Virus record (IMG/VR): IMGVR_UViG_3300043468_000664 | Coordinates: 1-44,392 of that record | DNA length: 44,392 nt | Strand: one strand, 5' to 3' | Source: a virus | In this document: piece after piece, positions 4,235 through 44,392 of the stretch | Position numbering within the stretch: the first letter of the stretch is position 1 | Layout: each line of letters opens with the position of its first letter | The notes under the pieces: model-generated | Seen by the model: the letters and a program-made list of their open reading frames with translations, nothing else | Told to the model about the DNA's origin: nothing | Database searches by the model: none | Made by a program: the position numbers and the translations under genes

Positions 4235-4705
4235 CTAATCACAAGAGTACTGGTAAATTGTCTTCACCCACCAGTACAGCATGTCGTTGCTTAAGCTCTG
4301 TTTTAAGAGATTAACCCGTAGAGCAACGAGCTGCACGTTTCCCGGTATATACCCTTGCTGGCTGTCTATTCGGTCGATGCTTGCGTTAAAGTCCTTGGCT
4401 CCCGACCCGTCGTTATGGTGAGTGAGCACTACTCCTGATATCGCACAACGGCCTTCTTGCCGTTGCCAGAGATCAATGAGGTACTCGGCGGTTACCTCGT
4501 AGTCCGTGAACCCACGACTACGGCTCTTACTTTTGCTCGTAGATACGAGATTCGTTAAGTACGGTTCGTAGCCCGTGGACCGTTGTTGACGGCGCGTGGC
4601 TTGATTACAGGGGCGGCATATTGTCCTGAAGCCGCCTTTCATAGCCTCGAAACTCGCTATGGGCAGGTCCGTCTGGCAGCGAGCGCATGTCTTAGTGTCT
4701 GACAC
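4235..4705 (-). CDS. HNH endonuclease with N-terminal zinc ribbon
   Basis: A 156-aa protein with a GTG start preceded by GGGTAGG. The N-terminal CxxC-x19-CxxC (C7, C10, C30, C33) is a zinc ribbon. The C-terminal half has the HNH-type core: GRCAISGVVLTHH, then ASIDRIDS, then GYIPGNVQLV and a final N-x3-K. These pieces occur in phage HNH nucleases related to homing enzymes. Beside terminase genes, HNH proteins can be packaging cofactors that nick at cos or pac sites; a selfish homing endonuclease is the alternative. It is the first gene of the left minus-strand operon. Confidence 0.75.
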   Translation of the reverse strand: MSDTKTCARCQTDLPIASFEAMKGGFRTICRPCNQATRRQQRSTGYEPYLTNLVSTSKSKSRSRGFTDYEVTAEYLIDLWQRQEGRCAISGVVLTHHNDGSGAKDFNASIDRIDSQQGYIPGNVQLVALRVNLLKQSLSNDMLYWWVKTIYQYSCD

Positions 4706-4780
4706 TAGTACAACCTACCCGGAAAATCGACCGTCGATCTCCTGCGCCGGGTGAAGTTGCCGGAGTATACCCTTGATTCC

Positions 4781-4825
4781 GCAAAAAATTTCTATAGAAA
4801 AATTTTGCAGAAAAAATTTCTATAG
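4781..4825. repeat. AT-rich 28-bp-period direct repeat with inverted symmetry
   Basis: The 15-mer AAAAAATTTCTATAG occurs at 4783-4797 and again at 4811-4825, exactly 28 bp apart. The first copy also forms an imperfect palindrome with the following GAAAAATTTTGC (10 of 12 positions pair with GCAAAAAATTTC). It lies in the divergent promoter region and could be a regulator-binding or DNA-bending site. Confidence 0.7.
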
Positions 4826-4914
4826 GAGGGGGTATGCGTTTTTCTATCTATTTTGCTCACTCATAGTCTCCCCCCTCGCCTCCAGCACCAACCCCTTTCC
4901 CGGAATTTAGCCAT

Positions 4915-4951
4915 TGGAACCTTGTTTTTAACCAGAATCGTGGAACCTTGT
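4915..4951. repeat. 11-bp direct repeat, 26-bp period
   Basis: TGGAACCTTGT is present at 4915-4925 and 4941-4951. It lies just upstream of hairpin element A in the divergent region and may be a binding site for a phage regulator; no family is recognised. Confidence 0.55.
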
Positions 4952-4973
4952 CGCCCAGTAACCCCCCAGCGTC

Positions 4974-5003
4974 AACGCTCGACACTTCGTGTCTCGCGGT
5001 CAG
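4974..5003 (+). promoter_or_regulatory. conserved 30-nt hairpin element, copy A
   Basis: AACGCTC, then stem GACAC, loop TTC, stem GTGTC, then TCGCGGTCAG. The flanks and loop are the same in copies B (5951) and C (6562), while the 5-bp stem differs completely and stays paired. It ends 41 nt before the ATG of the 5045 gene. It could be a hairpin promoter or an RNA element in the leader. Confidence 0.7.
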
Positions 5004-5022
5004 TGACTATTGTGTATCTGTC

Positions 5023-5040
5023 AATTAACTAGGAGTAATT
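5023..5040 (+). promoter_or_regulatory. Shine-Dalgarno presented in a hairpin loop
   Basis: AATTA pairs with TAATT (perfect 5 bp) around the loop ACTAGGAG, which holds the ribosome-binding site of the 5045 gene. An overlapping palindrome GAGTAATTACTC (5033-5044) abuts the ATG and would compete. GGA in a hairpin loop over the SD is the shape bound by CsrA-family repressors. Confidence 0.45.
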
Positions 5041-5044
5041 ACTC

Positions 5045-5218
5045 ATGGACAACCAAGCCAATACAACCAACAACATCAACGACAACGAACAACCGGACCA
5101 GATGTATCTCGCTGCTGAGAAAGCAAAAGAAGCATCCAAGTCTGTCATCACCTACGCTAAAGAGAAGCCTGACATGGCAGCTCTATTCGTCCTAGGCGTA
5201 CTCAACCTCTTCAGCTAA
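5045..5218 (+). CDS. small early protein, unknown function
   Basis: A 57-aa protein: an Asn/Asp/Gln-rich hydrophilic N-terminus, a helical AEKAKEASKS segment, and a hydrophobic C-terminus (MAALFVLGVLNLFS) that may associate with membrane. AGGAG lies 10 nt before the ATG. It is the first plus-strand gene after hairpin element A, a position typical of early host-takeover proteins. A longer frame overlapping it (5010-5195) lacks this ribosome site and is taken as a shadow. Confidence 0.65.
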   Translation: MDNQANTTNNINDNEQPDQMYLAAEKAKEASKSVITYAKEKPDMAALFVLGVLNLFS

Positions 5219-5225
5219 TCCAATC

Positions 5226-5246
5226 GGGAGGGACCTCCAACCTCCC
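5226..5246 (+). other. intergenic hairpin
   Basis: GGGAGG pairs with CCTCCC around a 9-nt loop, between the two small genes. No T-run follows, so it is not a clear terminator; it may affect mRNA stability or coupling. Confidence 0.4.
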
Positions 5247-5271
5247 ATCACTAACCACAAGGAACTATCCA

Positions 5272-5433
5272 ATGACCCTCACCAGCGGCAAGACATCACT
5301 GGCCTTCAGCATCCTCGCAAACATCACCTTCCTCGGCTCGTTCTTCACTGAGCCCCCGGTTAGCCACTCACTCATCATCGCTACCGGATTAGCCGTTATC
5401 GGCACCCTCGTATCACTGCTCTCCAACGACTAA
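5272..5433 (+). CDS. small two-helix membrane protein, unknown
   Basis: A 53-aa protein beginning MTLTSGKTSLAFSILANITF. It has two hydrophobic stretches, roughly residues 9-22 and 31-49 (LIIATGLAVIGTLVSLL), split by TEPPVSH, as in a small membrane hairpin. AAGGA lies about 10 nt before the ATG. It follows the 5045 gene and is followed by a strong hairpin terminator, so the two genes look like a short early operon. Function unknown. Confidence 0.65.
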   Translation: MTLTSGKTSLAFSILANITFLGSFFTEPPVSHSLIIATGLAVIGTLVSLLSND

Positions 5434-5442
5434 CAACTATCC

Positions 5443-5480
5443 ACTGACCACGGTCAACATACCGTGGTCAGTTGTTGTTT
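5443..5480 (+). terminator. probable transcription terminator, 12-bp perfect stem
   Basis: ACTGACCACGGT pairs perfectly with ACCGTGGTCAGT across a 6-nt loop (CAACAT) and is followed by T-rich TTGTTGTTT. It closes the two-gene early unit and stops reading into the origin region. The arm begins with ACTGACCAC, which recurs on the far side of the origin at 5917-5925, so it may also be a protein site. Confidence 0.65.
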
Positions 5481-5559
5481 GCACGCAACACATGTCATGT
5501 GCCAGTGGACAACGGTCGTGTGCTCATGGCCAGTTGCCCGTGATCCGCTCACACAGGCA

Positions 5560-5886
5560 TGTGTGCAGTGTGTGCAGCGATTACGGTTTGTGTGCAGGCA
5601 TGTGTGCAGGCAAGTTTGTTGCAGACAAACGCATGCAAGTGCCTGATTTACAAACACTTTAACCCTGCGATAACGAAATGTGTGCAGTGTGTGCAGGGTT
5701 TTTACCATTTTTAAAACGGGGTGCAATTTGAAAAATACAACATGTTGTTTTTCTTGCGAACTGAAAAAATGCCTGCACACAGTGAACACACATTGATTTA
5801 TAAGGAAAAATGCCTGCACACACACCCTCGTTTGCTGCACACATTGCCCTGTTTGCTGCACACATTTAGACCCTTAGCTGCACACA
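5560..5886. repeat. iterons: 11 copies of TGTGTGCAG in inverted clusters
   Basis: Forward copies are at 5560, 5569, 5589, 5601, 5679 and 5688. Reverse copies (CTGCACACA) are at 5773, 5814, 5835, 5856 and 5878. The last four reverse copies are 21, 21 and 22 bp apart, and the first is 41 bp before them, so they sit on one face of the helix about every two turns. The forward copies are irregular, with tandem pairs 9 bp apart. Confidence 0.85.
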
Positions 5887-5889
5887 GTC

Positions 5890-5898
5890 TGTGGATAA
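5890..5898 (-). promoter_or_regulatory. DnaA-box-like site
   Basis: TGTGGATAA is the exact complement of the consensus DnaA box TTATCCACA. It lies 3 nt from the last iteron, suggesting host DnaA may help open the phage origin. Confidence 0.55.
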
Positions 5899-5905
5899 CT
5901 CAAAC

Positions 5906-5932
5906 TAGTGGTTAAAACTGACCACTAACCAC
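5906..5932. promoter_or_regulatory. operator-like inverted repeat
   Basis: TAGTGGT (5906-5912) faces ACCACTA (5921-5927), and ACCACT repeats immediately after. The ACTGACCAC core at 5917-5925 also occurs in both arms of the hairpin at 5443-5472, on the other side of the origin. Confidence 0.45.
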
Positions 5933-5950
5933 TGTTCACTTATACAGGAC

Positions 5951-5980
5951 AACGCTCATCGGTTCCCGATTCGCGGTCAG
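5951..5980 (+). promoter_or_regulatory. conserved 30-nt hairpin element, copy B
   Basis: AACGCTC, stem ATCGG, loop TTC, stem CCGAT, then TCGCGGTCAG. Flanks match copies A and C, and the stem is different but fully paired. It ends 43 nt before the ATG of the 6024 gene, just after the origin. Confidence 0.7.
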
Positions 5981-6023
5981 ATGTCCTATTGATTCACTTA
6001 TGTAACAACCAGAGGTATCAACC

Positions 6024-6353
6024 ATGTCCGAGCCACAGCAAATTGATCTATTCGACCCAATGGTCATTTACTGCGACGACGCTCCAGTCGTTAACCTCGA
6101 TCAGTTCTTCATGTTAGTAACTAAGGATTTTGCTAACACGTTCCCCCACGGCACGCTTGCCGTCAGCCCACCTATCCCACTGCGTTCAGGCGCAGGCTGG
6201 TATGTCGGACGTGCCGGGTTCAACTTCGACGAAGTAACTAACCGTTGGTGGTACGAGCCGTACGACCGTATTTCGGACTACTACCAAACAGAATCTGAGG
6301 CTGCTGACGTAGCCTCTTGGCACCGTTGGGGAGCAGGACACCCATCCATATGA
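6024..6353 (+). CDS. hypothetical early protein
   Basis: A 109-aa acidic, aromatic-rich protein (MSEPQQIDLFDPMVIYCDD ...). AGAGGT precedes the ATG. It is the first gene after the origin and hairpin element B, and overlaps the next start by ATGA. The C-terminal half is rich in W and Y (RWWYEPYDRISDYYQTESEA). Family not recognised; a host-takeover role is only a guess from position. Confidence 0.65.
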   Translation: MSEPQQIDLFDPMVIYCDDAPVVNLDQFFMLVTKDFANTFPHGTLAVSPPIPLRSGAGWYVGRAGFNFDEVTNRWWYEPYDRISDYYQTESEAADVASWHRWGAGHPSI

Positions 6354-6562
6354 ACGACACACAGTGCTACGTACTGGCGGTTGACTCACTGCAACGGGCC
6401 TTGAGCTCGTTGCAGTCCTCCCCAGACCAAGACTCCAAGGCCATGTATGAAACCCTTCGCCTCACCAACGAAGCAGCCCATGCCATCTACTCCATGGCGC
6501 ACATGCGCATGATGGCGGAGGAAAAGCTGCGCGAACTTGAGACTCCAACCGAGGAGTTCTGA
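6350..6562 (+). CDS. hypothetical helical protein
   Basis: A 70-aa protein from the ATG at 6350, which overlaps the previous stop (ATGA, translational coupling). Mostly alpha-helical with heptad-like leucines (VDSLQRALSSLQ, MRMMAEEKLRELE). The stop at 6560-6562 touches hairpin element C. Family not recognised. Confidence 0.6.
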   Translation: MNDTQCYVLAVDSLQRALSSLQSSPDQDSKAMYETLRLTNEAAHAIYSMAHMRMMAEEKLRELETPTEEF

Positions 6563-6591
6563 ACGCTCGCGCGTTCCGCGCTCGCGGTCGG
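6562..6591 (+). promoter_or_regulatory. conserved 30-nt hairpin element, copy C
   Basis: AACGCTC, stem GCGCG, loop TTC, stem CGCGC, then TCGCGGTCGG. Same flanks as A and B except one A-to-G change near the 3' end; a third, unrelated but fully paired stem. It begins on the last base of a stop codon and ends 32 nt before the ATG of the 6624 gene. Confidence 0.7.
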
Positions 6592-6623
6592 TGCAACCAG
6601 TGATCCAACTAACAGGTACCAGT

Positions 6624-6791
6624 ATGAAACAGTTGCAATTACCACTAACAACTAACCACGCACAACGGATCACTCACAAACTACAACAAGCAATCCAATA
6701 TGCTAAGGAGCACCCAGATGAAGTAATGCTCGCACTAATGACTATCCTGTTATTAGACATTGAAGATGACTTAGACGATGTCTCCAAGTAA
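6624..6791 (+). CDS. hypothetical small acidic-tailed protein
   Basis: A 55-aa protein from the ATG at 6624 (MKQLQLPLTTNHAQRITHKL). It has a central hydrophobic stretch (VMLALMTILLLDI) and an acidic C-terminus (EDDLDDVSK). The longer upstream frame would read through hairpin element C, so this start is preferred. Function unknown; possibly a membrane-associated early protein. Confidence 0.55.
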   Translation: MKQLQLPLTTNHAQRITHKLQQAIQYAKEHPDEVMLALMTILLLDIEDDLDDVSK

Positions 6792-6804
6792 CCAAAGGAT
6801 ACTT
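6786..6804 (+). promoter_or_regulatory. Shine-Dalgarno in hairpin loop
   Basis: AAGTA pairs with TACTT (perfect 5 bp) around the loop ACCAAAGGA, which carries the ribosome site of the 6809 gene. It is a candidate binding site for the phage or host CsrA. Confidence 0.4.
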
Positions 6805-10379: not shown

Positions 10380-11378
10380 ATGCGCACTATTCGTCCATCA
10401 CAACTCAAGTCCGAACTAAAAGCCAACGCCTTAGCCCGCGTGCCAAGCATGATCTGGGGCCCGCCAGGCCTCGGTAAATCTCAGATTGTTTATCAATTTT
10501 CCAACGACCTATACGCCAAGGTCTTCGAGCTTCGTGCCAACTTGTTTGACCCCGTCGACGTTCGCGGCGGTCTCAAAGTAGTTGAGCAAGCCGACGGCTC
10601 GTACCGAACTCGTTACGGCGTGCCTGAGGATTACCCCGACACTAACTACCAGGGCACCGTCGTGCTGCTCATCGACGAGTTGCCTAACGCACCTAAAGCT
10701 ACGCAAAACGCGTTGCTGCAGTTGACGCTCGATCGCAAGATCGGCACTTACGTTCTTCCAGAAAACACCATCATTGTTGGTGCAGGTAACCGTTCGCAAG
10801 ATCGTGCCGCTGTGCACGAGATGCCAACGCCTGTTAAGAACCGCTTCGCGCATTACACGCTCGAGGCAAACATCGACGACTGGGTAGCCTGGGCGCTTCG
10901 TAACAAAATCGACGACAGCATCATCTCGTTCCTTCGTTACCGTCCGAGTCTGCTTCACAGCTTAGACGCCAACGACTACGCGTTCCCGTCGCCCCGTACC
11001 TGGGAGATGGTCAGCCGCAAGTTGCCGCATATGAACGACATGTTCTACGGCGTTGCATCGCTTGTTGGCGACGGCCCGGCTGGCGAGTACTTGGCTCACA
11101 AGGCAATCCACAAGGATCTGCCTGACATCGAAGAGCTCATCAAGAACCCGTCAACCAGCCACGTTCCGAGCGACCCATCAGCTCTGTACGCAATTGCCGG
11201 TGCGCTGGCATCACGCGTAGACCAGCTGAACTTCGACGCGATCATGCGTTACAACAGACGTTTGCCACGCGAGTTTCAAGTAGTTCTTGTCCGCGACTGC
11301 TTGGCTAAAGAACGTACTTTGATTAACGAAAAGTCATTCAAGGACTGGACCACTGCTAACGTAGAAGTAGTCATCTAA
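10380..11378 (+). CDS. MoxR-type AAA+ ATPase
   Basis: A 332-aa protein with Walker A GPPGLGKS (27-34), Walker B VVLLIDE (94-100) and the sensor-1 motif IIVGAGNR (131-138), as in MoxR-family AAA+ proteins. These remodel partner proteins and usually work with a von Willebrand A protein. Here the vWA protein is encoded two genes downstream. AAGGAG lies 5 nt before the ATG inside a small hairpin. It follows a long structured leader, so the module is probably regulated as a unit. The substrate is unknown. Confidence 0.85.
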   Translation: MRTIRPSQLKSELKANALARVPSMIWGPPGLGKSQIVYQFSNDLYAKVFELRANLFDPVDVRGGLKVVEQADGSYRTRYGVPEDYPDTNYQGTVVLLIDELPNAPKATQNALLQLTLDRKIGTYVLPENTIIVGAGNRSQDRAAVHEMPTPVKNRFAHYTLEANIDDWVAWALRNKIDDSIISFLRYRPSLLHSLDANDYAFPSPRTWEMVSRKLPHMNDMFYGVASLVGDGPAGEYLAHKAIHKDLPDIEELIKNPSTSHVPSDPSALYAIAGALASRVDQLNFDAIMRYNRRLPREFQVVLVRDCLAKERTLINEKSFKDWTTANVEVVI

Positions 11379-12082: not shown

Positions 12083-13201
12083 ATGTCTGCTGAAAGCGCA
12101 CTTATCAAGGCGCGATCGCAACTGCTCATGGAACAGCCGTTCTTCGGAACGCTGGCCTTGAGACTACGCCCCGTTGAAAAAGAGGACGTAAAGACGGCAG
12201 CCACTGACGGCACAAGTTTTTTCTACAACTCTGATTTCATACGGAAACTAGATCCAATGCAGCTTCGTGGGTTAATCGCCCACGAAGTTATGCATTGTGT
12301 CTTCAACCATCAAACTCGCAGACAAGCCCGCGACCACAGCTTGTGGAACGTTGCTTGCGACTACGCTATCAACAACCATCTTGTGGACGCGGGTTTTATT
12401 CTGCCCAAAGGCGGCTTAGTAGATCCGGCTTATAAAGACATGTCTGCAGAAGCCATCTACAGCAAACTCCAACAAGAACCCAAGAAGCACAAGCCGTGCG
12501 CCTGGGGTATTGTGCTTGATGCAAACAGCGGCAGCATAGAGTCTGGTTCTGCTGCCGAGATGGAATCCCAATGGCAGATCGCTGTTGGGGAAGCACTCTC
12601 GGTAGCTAAATCACGCGGCAAGATGCCAGGTCACCTGGAGCTTGCACTAACCGATATTCTTGACCCGAAGGTCGACTGGCGTACTATTCTCTGGCCGTTC
12701 TTTACCGATCTTACTAACGACGACTTTACCTGGCGTAAACCAAATCGTGCTTACATTTCGGAAGACGAATATCTTCCGTCAATGTACGAAGAAGCCTGCG
12801 GTAAAGTTGCAATCGTCGCTGACTCCAGCGGATCTATCTCTGACGAGCAGGGTGTTCAGTTCTTCAGCGAACTAGACGCAGTGCTCGCTCAAGTCCGACC
12901 CGAGTCCGTCGTATTTATACAGTGCGACGCCAACGTCCAGGACGTGCATGTGTTTGACCGTGGACAACGGATCACGGACAACAAACGTACGTTCAAGGGT
13001 CGTGGCGGTACAGCATTTGCCCCGGCATTTGCTTACATTAAAGAGCACCACCCGGATGTCCAGGCAATTGTGTATCTCACAGACCTGGAGTCTAGCGACT
13101 TCGACGAAGCCGAACGCAACTGCATCGCACCGACGCTTTGGGTAGCTACAACGCGACACTCACAAGCGCCATTTGGTACCACTGTATATTTACCCTCTTG
13201 A
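12083..13201 (+). CDS. HExxH metallopeptidase-vWA domain protein
   Basis: A 372-aa protein with two recognisable parts, as in DUF2201-type proteins. The N-terminal part holds LIAHEVMHCVFNHQ, an HExxH zinc-peptidase motif (H67, E68, H71). The C-terminal part is a von Willebrand A-like domain with the MIDAS DSSGS (D247, S249, S251), GRGGTAF (T310) and YLTDLES (D334). Together with the MoxR ATPase it forms a MoxR-vWA module, where the ATPase and the metal-dependent vWA fold act on a partner protein. AGGAGG precedes the ATG. All key residues are present. Confidence 0.85.
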   Translation: MSAESALIKARSQLLMEQPFFGTLALRLRPVEKEDVKTAATDGTSFFYNSDFIRKLDPMQLRGLIAHEVMHCVFNHQTRRQARDHSLWNVACDYAINNHLVDAGFILPKGGLVDPAYKDMSAEAIYSKLQQEPKKHKPCAWGIVLDANSGSIESGSAAEMESQWQIAVGEALSVAKSRGKMPGHLELALTDILDPKVDWRTILWPFFTDLTNDDFTWRKPNRAYISEDEYLPSMYEEACGKVAIVADSSGSISDEQGVQFFSELDAVLAQVRPESVVFIQCDANVQDVHVFDRGQRITDNKRTFKGRGGTAFAPAFAYIKEHHPDVQAIVYLTDLESSDFDEAERNCIAPTLWVATTRHSQAPFGTTVYLPS

Positions 13202-42609: not shown

Positions 42610-44392
42610 TTACAGCTGGTTATAAATTGGCAGCAGCCGGTCTTTCAACGTCCGGTCTATCCGCCAGCCATTAGTCATAGCGGTATCGATAGTCTCTGTC
42701 GTGGGTCCAAGAAGCGTAAACAGTGGGCTGTCGCCAAAGTTAGCAGCATTTGAAGCCCCTGTAGCTAGCCCAAATGGCCCGCTAAAGTTTGACCGCTCAA
42801 AGGCCGTTCCGAGATACTCAGACCAGTCCATACGGTCGGTCCGGAAGTACTTCTGGTCGGCCTCAACGAACGGTAAGAACGCTGCCAGGCCAAACTTTGC
42901 GTACTCGCGAAGTTCCATACCAAGCATTGCCAGCGGCATAGTCGCTACCGCAGTAAGCGCGAGCAGCCCGGCTGCGGACCCAACACGCTGCCACGGGGTT
43001 CCAATATTCTGCTCACGAAGTCTGGTTTCAGCCTCCGAGAACATACCGCCTAGGATGACCTTACCGTAGGAGTAAAAGTAACCTTTCAGCTGCCATATCA
43101 AAGCGAAGTGCGGATCAGACGCCCACACCGGTCGCTCTGCAGCATTAGGACGCAGCGTCGAAGATTCAACGAATCGCTGCAGCGCCTGAGTAACCTTCTT
43201 ACCTTCTGGCGTCGAAAGCTTGCGCCCACTGTTGAGCCAGCTCGTTACATCGGCTCGGGTCAGACCAAGCTCTTCGAGGTACCGATCCGATCGCGGGTTA
43301 TTGAACTCATTACGTGCGTGTTTCGTAATGAACTGCACGCCCATGCCGGTAGCAAACTCACGAGTGAACCGAGTGAACCAGTTCAAACCAGTCAACGAGA
43401 ACCAGTGGTCAGACCACTTACGAGCGGTCGGATCCATATAGTCGGCGTCCGCATCAGTGATCCACGCGTTAGCCACGGCTTCTGGCGTAACGACACCGAT
43501 GTCGCGAGCCAACTGTTTGGCCTCTTCGCGGTTTTTGATAGTCGCTACTACCTCTTTCATGCCAGTCGTCAGGTCGCCAAACTCTTTTGACGCGATAACC
43601 GGACCAGCCAGGTCTGTCACAGACGAGATTGCAGCAAACGGCAGGATAGTCACGAACTGAATGAACTGCCCCCAGCTGTTCAGCTTTCGCCAGAACGGAC
43701 TGAGCGGAGCGCGATAACCCATGTAGGTGTTGATAACCTGCAGCGCCTGCTCGCGATCCTCTGGTGCAAGAGCATCCAGCAGCGGCTTGAGGCGATCGTT
43801 ACCCTGGTCATCTTTGGTAGCGCGGTCGAACTCGACGCGCTTGATTACCTTGCGGACGTACTCAGAAAACGCCTGCTTTGGCGGGAGCAAAAAGCCGTTA
43901 TCTCGAAGCTGCTGGCGAGTTAAGTTCTTCGTTAACTCAAGCGCCTCGTTAACGCTAGCGGCCGGGTCCAACGGGTTGCCTTCTACGTCGGCGCCGTTAG
44001 TTACCGCCTGCTGAAGGTCTACGAGCTTCTGAACTCTGCTAGTTATTTTTGCGCGGTTTGCACTTGGGTCGGCCTGCAGAATCAAATCGACAAATGCTTG
44101 CGGGTCATTTGAGATAGCCACAAGATCAAGCAGACGCGGAAAGTAGTCGCGCTGGAAGCCGATCTTAGTCTTCGATGGGCTGACGTATTCTGAGTAGAAG
44201 TCCTCAAGGAACTGGCGGATGGCCAGCGCCTTACCGGTCAACTGTGCGGTCGGCGTGTCTGACGCTGCCTTATCGAACTCTGCGTCCAGAGCCGGATCAT
44301 CAAATGACCCTAACTCCGTATCAAGTCGGTTCTTATACAAGTCAAACGTACGCGCCGACTGCGGTACAAAACCAAGACGGCCTTTGCCGGTC
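42610..44392 (-). CDS. C-terminus of very large virion 'polyvalent' protein (cut by window edge)
   Basis: At least 594 codons run to the right edge with no stop; the frame continues upstream of the TTG at 44340. Segments include YFPRLLDLVAISNDP, FRRKLNSWGQ-like FWRKLNSWGQFIQFVTILPF, ASLLA hydrophobic stretches and WFTRFTREFATGMG. Together they resemble the C-terminal domains of giant injected phage polyvalent proteins (LPD38-type), which carry DNA-linked functions into the host. Enzymatic domains, if any, lie outside the window. Confidence 0.65.
   Translation of the reverse strand, partial: TGKGRLGFVPQSARTFDLYKNRLDTELGSFDDPALDAEFDKAASDTPTAQLTGKALAIRQFLEDFYSEYVSPSKTKIGFQRDYFPRLLDLVAISNDPQAFVDLILQADPSANRAKITSRVQKLVDLQQAVTNGADVEGNPLDPAASVNEALELTKNLTRQQLRDNGFLLPPKQAFSEYVRKVIKRVEFDRATKDDQGNDRLKPLLDALAPEDREQALQVINTYMGYRAPLSPFWRKLNSWGQFIQFVTILPFAAISSVTDLAGPVIASKEFGDLTTGMKEVVATIKNREEAKQLARDIGVVTPEAVANAWITDADADYMDPTARKWSDHWFSLTGLNWFTRFTREFATGMGVQFITKHARNEFNNPRSDRYLEELGLTRADVTSWLNSGRKLSTPEGKKVTQALQRFVESSTLRPNAAERPVWASDPHFALIWQLKGYFYSYGKVILGGMFSEAETRLREQNIGTPWQRVGSAAGLLALTAVATMPLAMLGMELREYAKFGLAAFLPFVEADQKYFRTDRMDWSEYLGTAFERSNFSGPFGLATGASNAANFGDSPLFTLLGPTTETIDTAMTNGWRIDRTLKDRLLPIYNQL

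Follow-up and report, generated by a model that had tools for sequence, protein, structure and literature searches.

DNA hairpin promoters are described from N4 and the Schitoviridae, in which the early promoters are hairpins read by a virion RNA polymerase (vRNAP), and they are presented there as belonging to N4-type phages together with their giant virion polymerase (PMC4496689, PMC3715699). N4 is described as needing a C:G pair that closes the loop and a G at position -8 of the template strand (PMC4496689), and mini-hairpins of the GNA type are described as extraordinarily stable DNA (PMC4686876). For N4, probing is described to give a resistant loop on the template strand next to a sensitive loop on the opposite strand (PMC4496689). 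A different kind of repeat, the ESAS of Cluster K mycobacteriophages, is reported to precede a subset of non-structural genes (PMC3203893).

The DNA analysed here (the window) is a viral stretch of 44,392 nucleotides (IMG/VR record IMGVR_UViG_3300043468_000664). According to the initial annotation it contains three copies of a hairpin element at 4974, 5951 and 6562, each perfectly paired in its stem, each 32-43 nt before a start codon, absent elsewhere in the window and with GAA as the loop of the complementary strand. All of this is borne out by a pattern scan: AACGCTC-N5-TTC-N5-TCGCGGTC matches exactly at the three positions, always on the plus strand, and no further copy with up to 3 mismatches is found on either strand of the window, for which dinucleotide shuffles give an expectation of 0.05. 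The inner stems (GACAC/GTGTC, ATCGG/CCGAT and GCGCG/CGCGC) are each perfectly paired, the complementary loop is GAA in 3/3 elements, and the gaps to the start codon are 41, 43 and 32 nt for elements 1, 2 and 3, respectively (58, 60 and 49 nt from the loop centre to the ATG). The annotation had missed a 3-bp outer stem, CGC/GCG, that flanks the inner stem, as well as a near-constant TC/TC step that separates the two stems and a GGTCAG tail that is retained with the element in most copies. The unpaired parts of the template (complementary) strand are a GNA triloop and a tandem GA/GA. The features of the window are as follows:

4235-4705: endonuclease VII-like enzyme, a homologue match
4974..5003, plus strand: element 1; loop TTC 4986-4988; inner stem 4981-4985/4989-4993; outer stem 4976-4978/4996-4998; TC/TC 4979-4980 and 4994-4995; tail 4999-5003; the proposed functional hairpin is on the minus (template) strand, with predicted start G 4998
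5045..5218, plus strand: putative early gene of 57 aa downstream of element 1, C-terminal half hydrophobic by eye
5951..5980, plus strand: element 2; loop TTC 5963-5965; inner stem 5958-5962/5966-5970; outer stem 5953-5955/5973-5975; TC/TC 5956-5957 and 5971-5972; predicted start G 5975
6024..6353, plus strand: putative early gene of 109 aa downstream of element 2, without PHROG match
6562..6591, plus strand: element 3; loop TTC 6574-6576; inner stem 6569-6573/6577-6581; outer stem 6564-6566/6584-6586; TC/TC 6567-6568 and 6582-6583; predicted start G 6586
6624..6791, plus strand: putative early gene of 55 aa downstream of element 3
10380..11378, plus strand: AAA (MoxR-type) ATPase, homologue of N4 gp24, used as the anchor for fetching relatives
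12083..13201, plus strand: homologue of N4 gp25, annotated in other phages as HNH, metallopeptidase or VWA-like
42610..44391, minus strand: C-terminal third of a giant protein, cut off, with virion-protein family matches and an HExGH motif upstream

Judged from their position and neighbours, the genes that follow the elements are probably early. A gene similar to the 55-aa gene is also preceded by an element in other lineages (e.g. L157, L163, L171). A primase is encoded in the window as well. The portal gene and the giant gene each run off one end of the window, and a circular genome was rejected as there is no overlap between the ends, and joining them does not produce a single sensible gene.

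The view that the pairing itself is selected, also put forward in the annotation, gains support from the relatives. A search with the exact flank pattern, which makes no demand on pairing, led to 25 viral contigs; every copy is perfectly paired in 24 of them (L001 is the sole unpaired one), and two stem types, GACGC and GCCCC, are added. The outer stem covaries in the relatives too (CGT/ACG, CAC/GTG, AGC/GCT). In an alignment of 21 distinct copies, the rows of which were picked partly for pairing, two-sided changes are found at 8/8 pairs and 98.2% of the cells are paired. We infer from this covariation that the element needs to be paired. The pairs bordering the TC/TC step keep their purine/pyrimidine sense (21/21, and 20/20 plus one mismatch), and inner pairs 2-5 do flip theirs. 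Outer pair 2 likewise never flips, so the TC/TC borders are not alone in obeying this rule, and L171a breaks it. Pairs that border tandem sheared G.A are expected to hold their purine/pyrimidine sense, and the non-flipping borders would fit, as expected, tandem sheared G.A on the template strand. Template loops of the relatives are GAA, GGA and also GTA, in lists built by requiring a TNC loop; the exceptions are L211a (GGC on the template), L178 (a 2-nt loop) and L273 (a 4-nt loop).

The scan of relatives that the annotation proposed as a check is favourable as to strand, all 59 matches of at least 33 bits being on the plus (sense) strand in the window or in ATPase-anchored loci, but less so as to spread, since such matches occur in only 25 of the 70 searched sources. 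Some of the other sources have looser hairpins and many have none, and no element match above 15.1 bits is found in 0.70 Mb of giant-gene loci. The elements are mostly 31-49 nt before a start codon (counted from the GTC of the tail), usually with an SD, and in several lineages they have kept their place in front of similar genes. Among triloop hairpins that precede an SD and a start codon, the loop is TNC in 17/68 distinct cases on the plus strand, as compared to 1/21 on the minus strand and 62/919 elsewhere, whereby the same hairpin counts as TNC on one strand and as GNA on the other. The mismatches of the TNC class are T.C (G.A on the template) in 26/30 cases against a background of 292/1741, 20 of these 26 coming from the TC/TC step itself. 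Above one and the same threshold, 60 distinct TNC-loop hairpins are on the plus and 39 on the minus strand. At least 119 cellular stretches in genome_contigs match the element flanks; among the cellular matches listed, 7 have at least 4/5 pairs (G-T allowed) and 1 of these has 5. Cellular homes for the element were rejected, the spread of pair counts resembling that of chance.

The likeness to N4 promoters suggested by the annotation stands with respect to the general geometry, the position of the GG and the placement before putative early genes, but it does not extend to the loop-closing C:G and the -8 G. As in N4, the template loop is a 3-nt G(A/G)A, the stem falls in the range of 5-7 bp with bases partly free, and +1 of the template is C, which corresponds to a sense G 11 nt beyond the loop centre. 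The GG is present in 3/3 window elements and the +1 G in 23/25 curated elements; the predicted +1 G sits within the outer stem, and it is T in L176a and L211b. In contrast, the loop is closed by C-G in 15/21 copies, by G-C in 4 and by T-A in 2 (element 1 is the only one with C-G among the three of the window), and the sense C at loop centre +3, which corresponds to the -8 G, is found in 9/25. A descriptor of this geometry (a TNC loop on a stem with a minimum of 5 bp, followed by GG at 11-12 nt from the loop centre) was drawn from N4-type phages and the present elements after both sets had been seen. It matches three times in the early 25.5 kb of N4 and once in the rest, 5 times in SP-058 and once in JWAlpha. 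In the window it finds the three elements on the plus strand and one site on the minus strand, vs 0.24 expected on both strands, the extra site lying within a late gene. KpCHEMY26, in which the early genes are on the minus strand, has 3 matches on the plus and 5 on the minus strand; the ATPase-anchored loci have 14 distinct ones on plus and 9 on minus, the giant-gene loci 1 and 4, respectively. Bacterial loci were left out as a control because they had been fetched with the same flanks.

The phage itself falls outside the Schitoviridae, its portal being of P22 type. When N4 proteins were tried against the window ORFs (n=37), matches at E<=0.001 were found only for gp24, gp25, terminase and DNAP, the latter two being weaker; the N4-type portal, coat, vRNAP, RNAPII and SSB are not among them. 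The gp24- and gp25-like genes are common to N4 and this phage, which we counted in favour of the promoter reading.

The annotation pointed to the giant protein as a place to look for a polymerase. The protein is indeed cut off by the window end (it has 1816 aa in the near-identical L219), but profile, hhalign and structure searches gave no polymerase. Its candidacy as a vRNAP is not supported by the HMM search (noise only, best E 1.3, vs 1417 bits for the N4 control) or by hhalign (probability 0.2%, vs 99.5% for a distant true vRNAP), and by sequence it has no match to solved structures. An AlphaFold model made for the C-terminal 1200 residues is of poor quality (mean pLDDT 56); Foldseek found nothing for it at E<=0.001, and its rows without significance include, with E above 2, chains of RNA polymerase holoenzyme and of Pol III. 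The best VIA-align rows are phage ejectosome/core proteins (Z 9.8, 8.6, 8.2) followed by metallopeptidases, where Z below ~13 may reflect just a common helical arrangement, and no polymerase is among the best 50. The similarity of the giant protein to ejectosome core proteins and to zinc metallopeptidases is weak, and it suggests an ejection protein that contains a metallopeptidase domain. Its 761-aa neighbour has a mostly helical model (pLDDT 70).

The broader search for a vRNAP-like domain, likewise proposed in the annotation, found none in the 47 related records, which include many fragments (0/47, N4 control positive). N4 RNAPII was not found either (control positive), and the window, an incomplete genome, has no match to vRNAP and N4 RNAPII above noise. 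T7-type RNA polymerase (PF00940) is found in 0/24 and 0/25 virus records, the T7 positive control ringing in the search of 25 and none ringing in that of 24. There may be a very diverged vRNAP-like enzyme in these phages; as no N4-type enzyme was recognised, something unknown may read the hairpins. Against the promoter reading we counted that no suitable polymerase was found and that the N4 loop-closing and -8 rules are not kept.

On balance we think it probable, arguing from the sequence, that the elements are template-strand DNA-hairpin promoters of the putative early genes that work in an N4-like manner. Negative supercoiling would extrude the element, and the minus strand would fold into a hairpin with a GAA (generally GNA) triloop, a free 5-bp stem, the tandem GA/GA and the 3-bp outer stem, a structure predicted to be extra-stable. 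A phage-specific initiation enzyme or factor would read the loop, the GA step and the shape of the hairpin, not the stem sequence. It would start transcription at the GG that follows the loop centre by 11-12 nt, or beside it (4998, 5975, 6586), leaving leaders of ~38-49 nt ahead of each gene. The proposal builds on the observed elements, their covariation, orientation and position, the N4-type geometry and the bias of the non-Watson-Crick parts towards one strand; early timing, extrusion, start site and promoter activity would be its consequences. With DNA folding parameters the two strands come out at equal energies, and element 3 as DNA folds no better than its own shuffles.

The strongest competitor, to which we give a distinctly smaller though real chance, is an RNA hairpin in the 5' leader of early mRNAs or between their genes, which would bind a phage or host protein or block an RNase and thereby control how well the following gene is translated or how stable its message is. 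The sense-strand location and the spacing to the start codon, usually with an SD, would suit such a role, and so would element 3, which lies inside an apparent operon and starts at the very stop codon of the preceding ORF (6317-6562). As RNA, the elements have folding energies between -9.1 and -12.2 kcal/mol, with element 3 no more stable than its shuffles, yet the constant UC/UC and UUC are on the less stable side: RNA of the complementary strand is more stable by 1.5 kcal/mol in 3/3 elements. A single sense G.U pair (L193b) fits RNA better, whereas the sense-strand bias towards TNC rather than GNA loops and towards T.C mismatches does not, and the N4 promoter geometry, GG included, would have to be a coincidence. 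By eye, CTGACC-17-TATACA ends 4 nt before element 2, which would have a transcript begin with this hairpin, but this motif fails the promoter-search criteria, with which no sigma-70-like site was found in the 200 nt preceding each element. Rfam 15 covariance models have no match at E<=1 in 4800-6800. The motif CGCTC resembles boxA of lambda boxA/boxB antitermination; antitermination of this or the HK022 put-like type was dropped because CGCTC and its partner change jointly (CGTTC/TCACG in L156).

The strand evidence for a template-strand hairpin promoter applies equally to a template-strand hairpin that is not a promoter alone. Such a hairpin could be bound by a single-strand DNA binding activator that acts on host RNA polymerase, mark the start of a primase or of replication, or be a substrate of the phage endonuclease VII-like enzyme (4235-4705). 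No phage RNA polymerase was recognised, an endonuclease VII homologue and a primase are present, and element 2 adjoins a repeat-rich, origin-like stretch. We nevertheless consider such a site improbable: the gene-start spacing in several lineages suits expression better than replication, as do the giant-gene loci, which are without a strong copy, and the N4-type GG spacing would be left unexplained. Chance repeats, mobile repeats or terminators are very improbable. The elements are short, and element 1 plus its flank is locally duplicated in L021 (= L150), but the low chance expectation, the covariation across lineages and the conserved place before similar genes speak against them, and none of the 5 terminator-like sites listed in the window is any of the three elements; this group of readings is already contradicted.

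We also put forward, at somewhat less than even odds, that a group of uncultured phages outside the Schitoviridae fires early genes from template hairpins with stabilising tandem G.A pairs whose reader is unrelated to the N4 vRNAP or unrecognisable as such. The reader would either be an RNA polymerase itself or act as a hairpin-reading factor that serves the host enzyme. If confirmed, hairpin-shaped DNA promoters would exist without a recognisable vRNAP, which would speak for a hitherto unknown polymerase or for a new route that brings the host polymerase to DNA. The suggested design rule, a GNA loop plus a Py-GA-Pu step, could serve to find such promoters by sequence alone.

In terms of the phage backbone, the closest named relatives are Aeromonas phage phiA008 and Pseudomonas phages KPP25 and phiR18 (terminase, primase). 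Portal, polymerase A, exonuclease, helicase and giant protein are also common to phiA008, KPP25 and the present phage, but the former two are without gp24-like or gp25-like match at E<=1e-4. There is no hairpin before the plus-strand early genes of KPP25, and at best one in phiA008. The minus strand of KPP25 carries two TCC hairpins of 9 perfect bp (24031, 24332), which are close to the divergent region and oriented in late direction. The ESAS of Cluster K mycobacteriophages are similar in being inverted repeats upstream of start codons, but they are described with 17-bp arms that share a consensus and with a 13-bp SAS (PMC3203893), whereas the arms are 5 bp and free in sequence here; the window has no SAS at up to 2 mismatches, and the elements do not belong to the ESAS/SAS family. 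N4 promoters differ from the present elements in that an added GA/GA step and a covarying outer stem reaching the start site are found here, the loop-closing pair and the -8 base are variable, the phage backbone is another one and no vRNAP was recognised. On the other hand, both have a template GNA triloop, a stem of at least 5 bp whose bases are partly free, GG at loop centre +11/+12 and few copies in the early region.

The window (G000, 44392 bases) is that of a tailed phage with a P22-type portal, a large terminase, a family A DNA polymerase, a primase and a helicase; the minus strand carries the genes for head, packaging and tail, the plus strand those for replication. The features discussed here are as follows.

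4235-4705, minus strand: endonuclease VII-like gene adjoining the early region
4780-4830: near-palindromic AT-rich repeats (AAAAAATTTCTATAG) in the divergent region separating minus- from plus-strand genes
4974, plus strand: hairpin element 1
5045-5218: small protein after element 1
5443-5472: terminator-like 12-bp hairpin, with GGTCAGT, the letters of the element tail, in its right arm
5460-5930: repeat-rich region lying after gene 1 and before element 2, with numerous repeats resembling TGTGTGCAG on both strands
5951, plus strand: hairpin element 2
6562, plus strand: hairpin element 3
6624-6791: small protein after element 3
42610-44391, minus strand: cut-off giant protein

The three elements follow the pattern AA-CGC-TC-N5-TTC-N5-TC-GCG-GTC(A/G)G exactly and on one strand, 0.05 copies being expected by chance within 3 mismatches, and the ATG lies 41, 43 and 32 nt away, respectively, so that the initial annotation was right about three copies with constant flanks and loop shortly before start codons. 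Because they precede those for replication, the genes behind the elements are called putatively early here. The proteins encoded after elements 1 and 3 are small and look alike by eye (AKE-[KH]-PD, then hydrophobic residues); they are possibly paralogous membrane proteins. The AT-rich repeats are a possible conventional promoter, and the repeat-rich region looks like an origin with iterons; in the related loci L171, L178 and L211, GGTACACA repeats are found immediately upstream of an element. The endonuclease VII-like gene belongs to a family of Holliday junction/cruciform resolvases and stands next to the early region; the phage itself may use extruded hairpins.

A search with the exact flanks, in which pairing was not required, matched 25 viral contigs; all copies were perfectly paired in 24 of them, with five different inner stems, and a single contig (L001) has an unpaired element. 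This supports the earlier claim that the pairing itself is selected. Using the gp24-like ATPase as an anchor we collected 69 relative loci (the set was widened later, one extension keeping 80 of 287), and a 21-row alignment showed both-side changes in 8 of 8 pairs and 98.2% of cells paired; its covariation score was reached by 0 of 500 shuffles, its count of pair types by 65. Because these rows were selected partly by requiring pairing, the unselected flank search outweighs them. Allowing 3 mismatches in the 24 records gave further copies with flanks changing together, and the outer stem CGC/GCG changes to CGT/ACG, CAC/GTG and AGC/GCT. Some relatives carry unusual arrangements: in L176 (5993-6055) a single gene is preceded by a direct tandem of two elements 28 nt apart, L178 (1335, 2953, 3510) has a 2-nt TC loop (or a 4-nt CTCG loop) with TC/TC and outer stem kept, and in L021 (1433 and 1545) element 1 and its flank are duplicated locally, a duplication that is either genuine or a product of assembly.

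The initial annotation proposed a covariance scan of relatives. We scanned 70 sources (1.05 Mb, including repeated contigs and near-identical phages) with a model of the 21 rows and obtained 59 hits that scored 33 bits or more, the training copies included. All are on the plus strand, and they come from 25 of the sources; among the remaining 45 loci, some end short of the upstream region, and others extend there without a strong copy. In L178 and L176 there are weaker hits, at 18.8 bits, likewise situated before start codons; in 43 giant-gene loci (0.70 Mb) nothing exceeded 15.1 bits. For 25 curated elements, all selected for a TNC loop, the distance from loop centre to ATG is 49-76 nt in 21 and 93 nt in L180; two lack an ATG that opens a frame of 30 codons, and in an L176 copy the script settled on an upstream ATG at 33 nt, a separate analysis giving 66.

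Three facts, all drawn from sequence comparison, point to a functional hairpin on the minus (template) strand. When distinct triloop hairpins with at least 8 of 10 layers paired were counted before an SD and start codon, TNC and GNA loops made up 17 and 5 of 68 on the plus strand, 1 and 3 of 21 on the minus strand, and 62 and 71 of 919 elsewhere. A TNC loop on the sense strand is GNA on the template, and GNA loops are described as a class of extraordinarily stable DNA mini-hairpins (PMC4686876). Mismatches are likewise biased, as T.C (G.A on the template) accounts for 26 of 30 in the TNC class, compared with a background of 292 of 1741; the TC/TC step itself supplies 20 of the 26, and other lineages the remaining 6. 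On the template, TC/TC becomes a tandem GA/GA step, and tandem G.A pairs of the sheared form occur in the context 5'-Py-GA-Pu. Finally, the pairs flanking TC/TC hold one purine/pyrimidine sense (21/21, and 20/20 plus one mismatch), as does the middle outer pair (20, one G.U); inner pairs 2-5 flip (3/17, 4/17, 10/11, 4/17), and the outermost pair flips in 2. The step is retained in L171a but displaced by one pair, so that the stems are 4+4 rather than 3+5; L168/L170 and L180 are 4+4 as well. Contrary to the minus-strand reading are the wrong flank in L171a, a sense G.U in L193b, two Watson-Crick pairs in place of TC/TC in L171c, and DNA folding, which gives equal energy for both strands; with RNA parameters the minus strand comes out 1.5 kcal/mol more stable in 3/3 elements. 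All counts in this paragraph are descriptive, related copies not being independent of one another.

We consider a template-strand hairpin promoter the probable explanation, having weighed against it the equal DNA folding energies, the restriction of strong copies to 25 of 70 sources, the middle outer pair that, like those bordering TC/TC, does not flip, two minus-strand hairpins of KPP25 and a -10-like site. It is possible, if rather unlikely, that the hairpin acts in an RNA leader: location, orientation and a fair RNA fold agree, and by eye a -10-like TATACA stands directly before element 2, but the strand-specific mismatch and loop bias would be unexplained, as would the agreement with N4 promoter geometry. 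A DNA hairpin that is not a promoter accords with the strand evidence and disagrees with the gene-start spacing, and we regard it as improbable.

A hairpin promoter of the N4 type raises the matter of the N4 virion RNA polymerase (vRNAP), for which the initial annotation pointed to the giant protein and the missing genes; no such enzyme was recognised in the giant protein. vRNAP profiles gave only noise in 12,146 ORFs and, when the set was widened, in its 8,990 longer ORFs. They recognised a vRNAP in 0 of 47 records, many of them fragments (45 IMG/VR relatives, phiA008 and KPP25), the N4 control being detected. Searches for T7-type and RNAPII enzymes found none, their controls being positive. 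The giant protein (1816 aa in a near-identical relative) contains an invariant HExGH motif, its C-terminal part is assigned to virion proteins by PHROGs, and its poor structural model suggests a weak likeness to ejectosome/core proteins and zinc metallopeptidases. In a relative's stretch covering the missing part, from terminase to beyond a coat-sized ORF, plus-strand ORFs >400 aa were, by size, portal-sized only (716 aa). If the phage has such a polymerase, it may be split or very diverged.

Homologues of N4 gp24 and gp25 are present in the phage (E 6e-34 and 1e-48). We treat this tie to N4 as no more than a lead, since the gp24 ATPase family is not confined to Schitoviridae, Bacillus phage G having it too. 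phiA008 and KPP25, the named phages closest in backbone among those examined, gave neither a gp24 nor a gp25 match at E<=1e-4; such a hairpin is absent before the plus-strand early genes of KPP25, and phiA008 has one at best, a 6-bp hairpin with a TGC loop lying 62 nt ahead of gene 1. KPP25 (L317) has two perfect 9-bp TCC-loop hairpins near its divergent region (minus, late-gene strand, 24031 and 24332). Other lineages with the same ATPase family have N4-like TNC hairpins with template G.A-type mismatches before start codons, most without the strict TC/TC element (L285 2369, 3389, 4724; L278 1662, 2788; L281 1059; L282 3990; L166 5540).

It is instructive to compare the elements with N4 promoters. 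According to PMC4496689, the template of these forms a hairpin whose 3-nt loop (5' G, 3' A) is closed by C:G; contacts fall at -11 (A/G), -10 (G), -8 (G) and +1 (C), with GTP at +1 and +2. The open-licence PMC literature searched reports hairpin promoters in N4-type phages, and we found none reported for phages without vRNAP. In the early regions (first 8-9 kb) of N4, SP-058, KpCHEMY26 and JWAlpha there are 19 hairpins that combine a stem of 5-7 bp with a TNC loop, nearly always TTC or TCC, and in 14 of them GG is exactly at centre +11/+12. A descriptor drawn from such phages and from the window's elements (TNC loop, stem of at least 5 bp, GG 11-12 nt past the loop centre) has three early hits in N4, which we infer to be its three known promoters. 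In the window it finds the three elements on the plus strand and one minus-strand site (27446) within a tail gene, the mean in 100 Markov sequences being 0.24 and the maximum 2. The proposed analogy fails at the loop-closing pair, which is C-G in 15 of 21 copies and, within the window, in element 1 alone, and at -8, where the template has G in 9 of 25; no vRNAP was recognised in the records searched, and the analogy stands in the geometry of loop, stem and GG.
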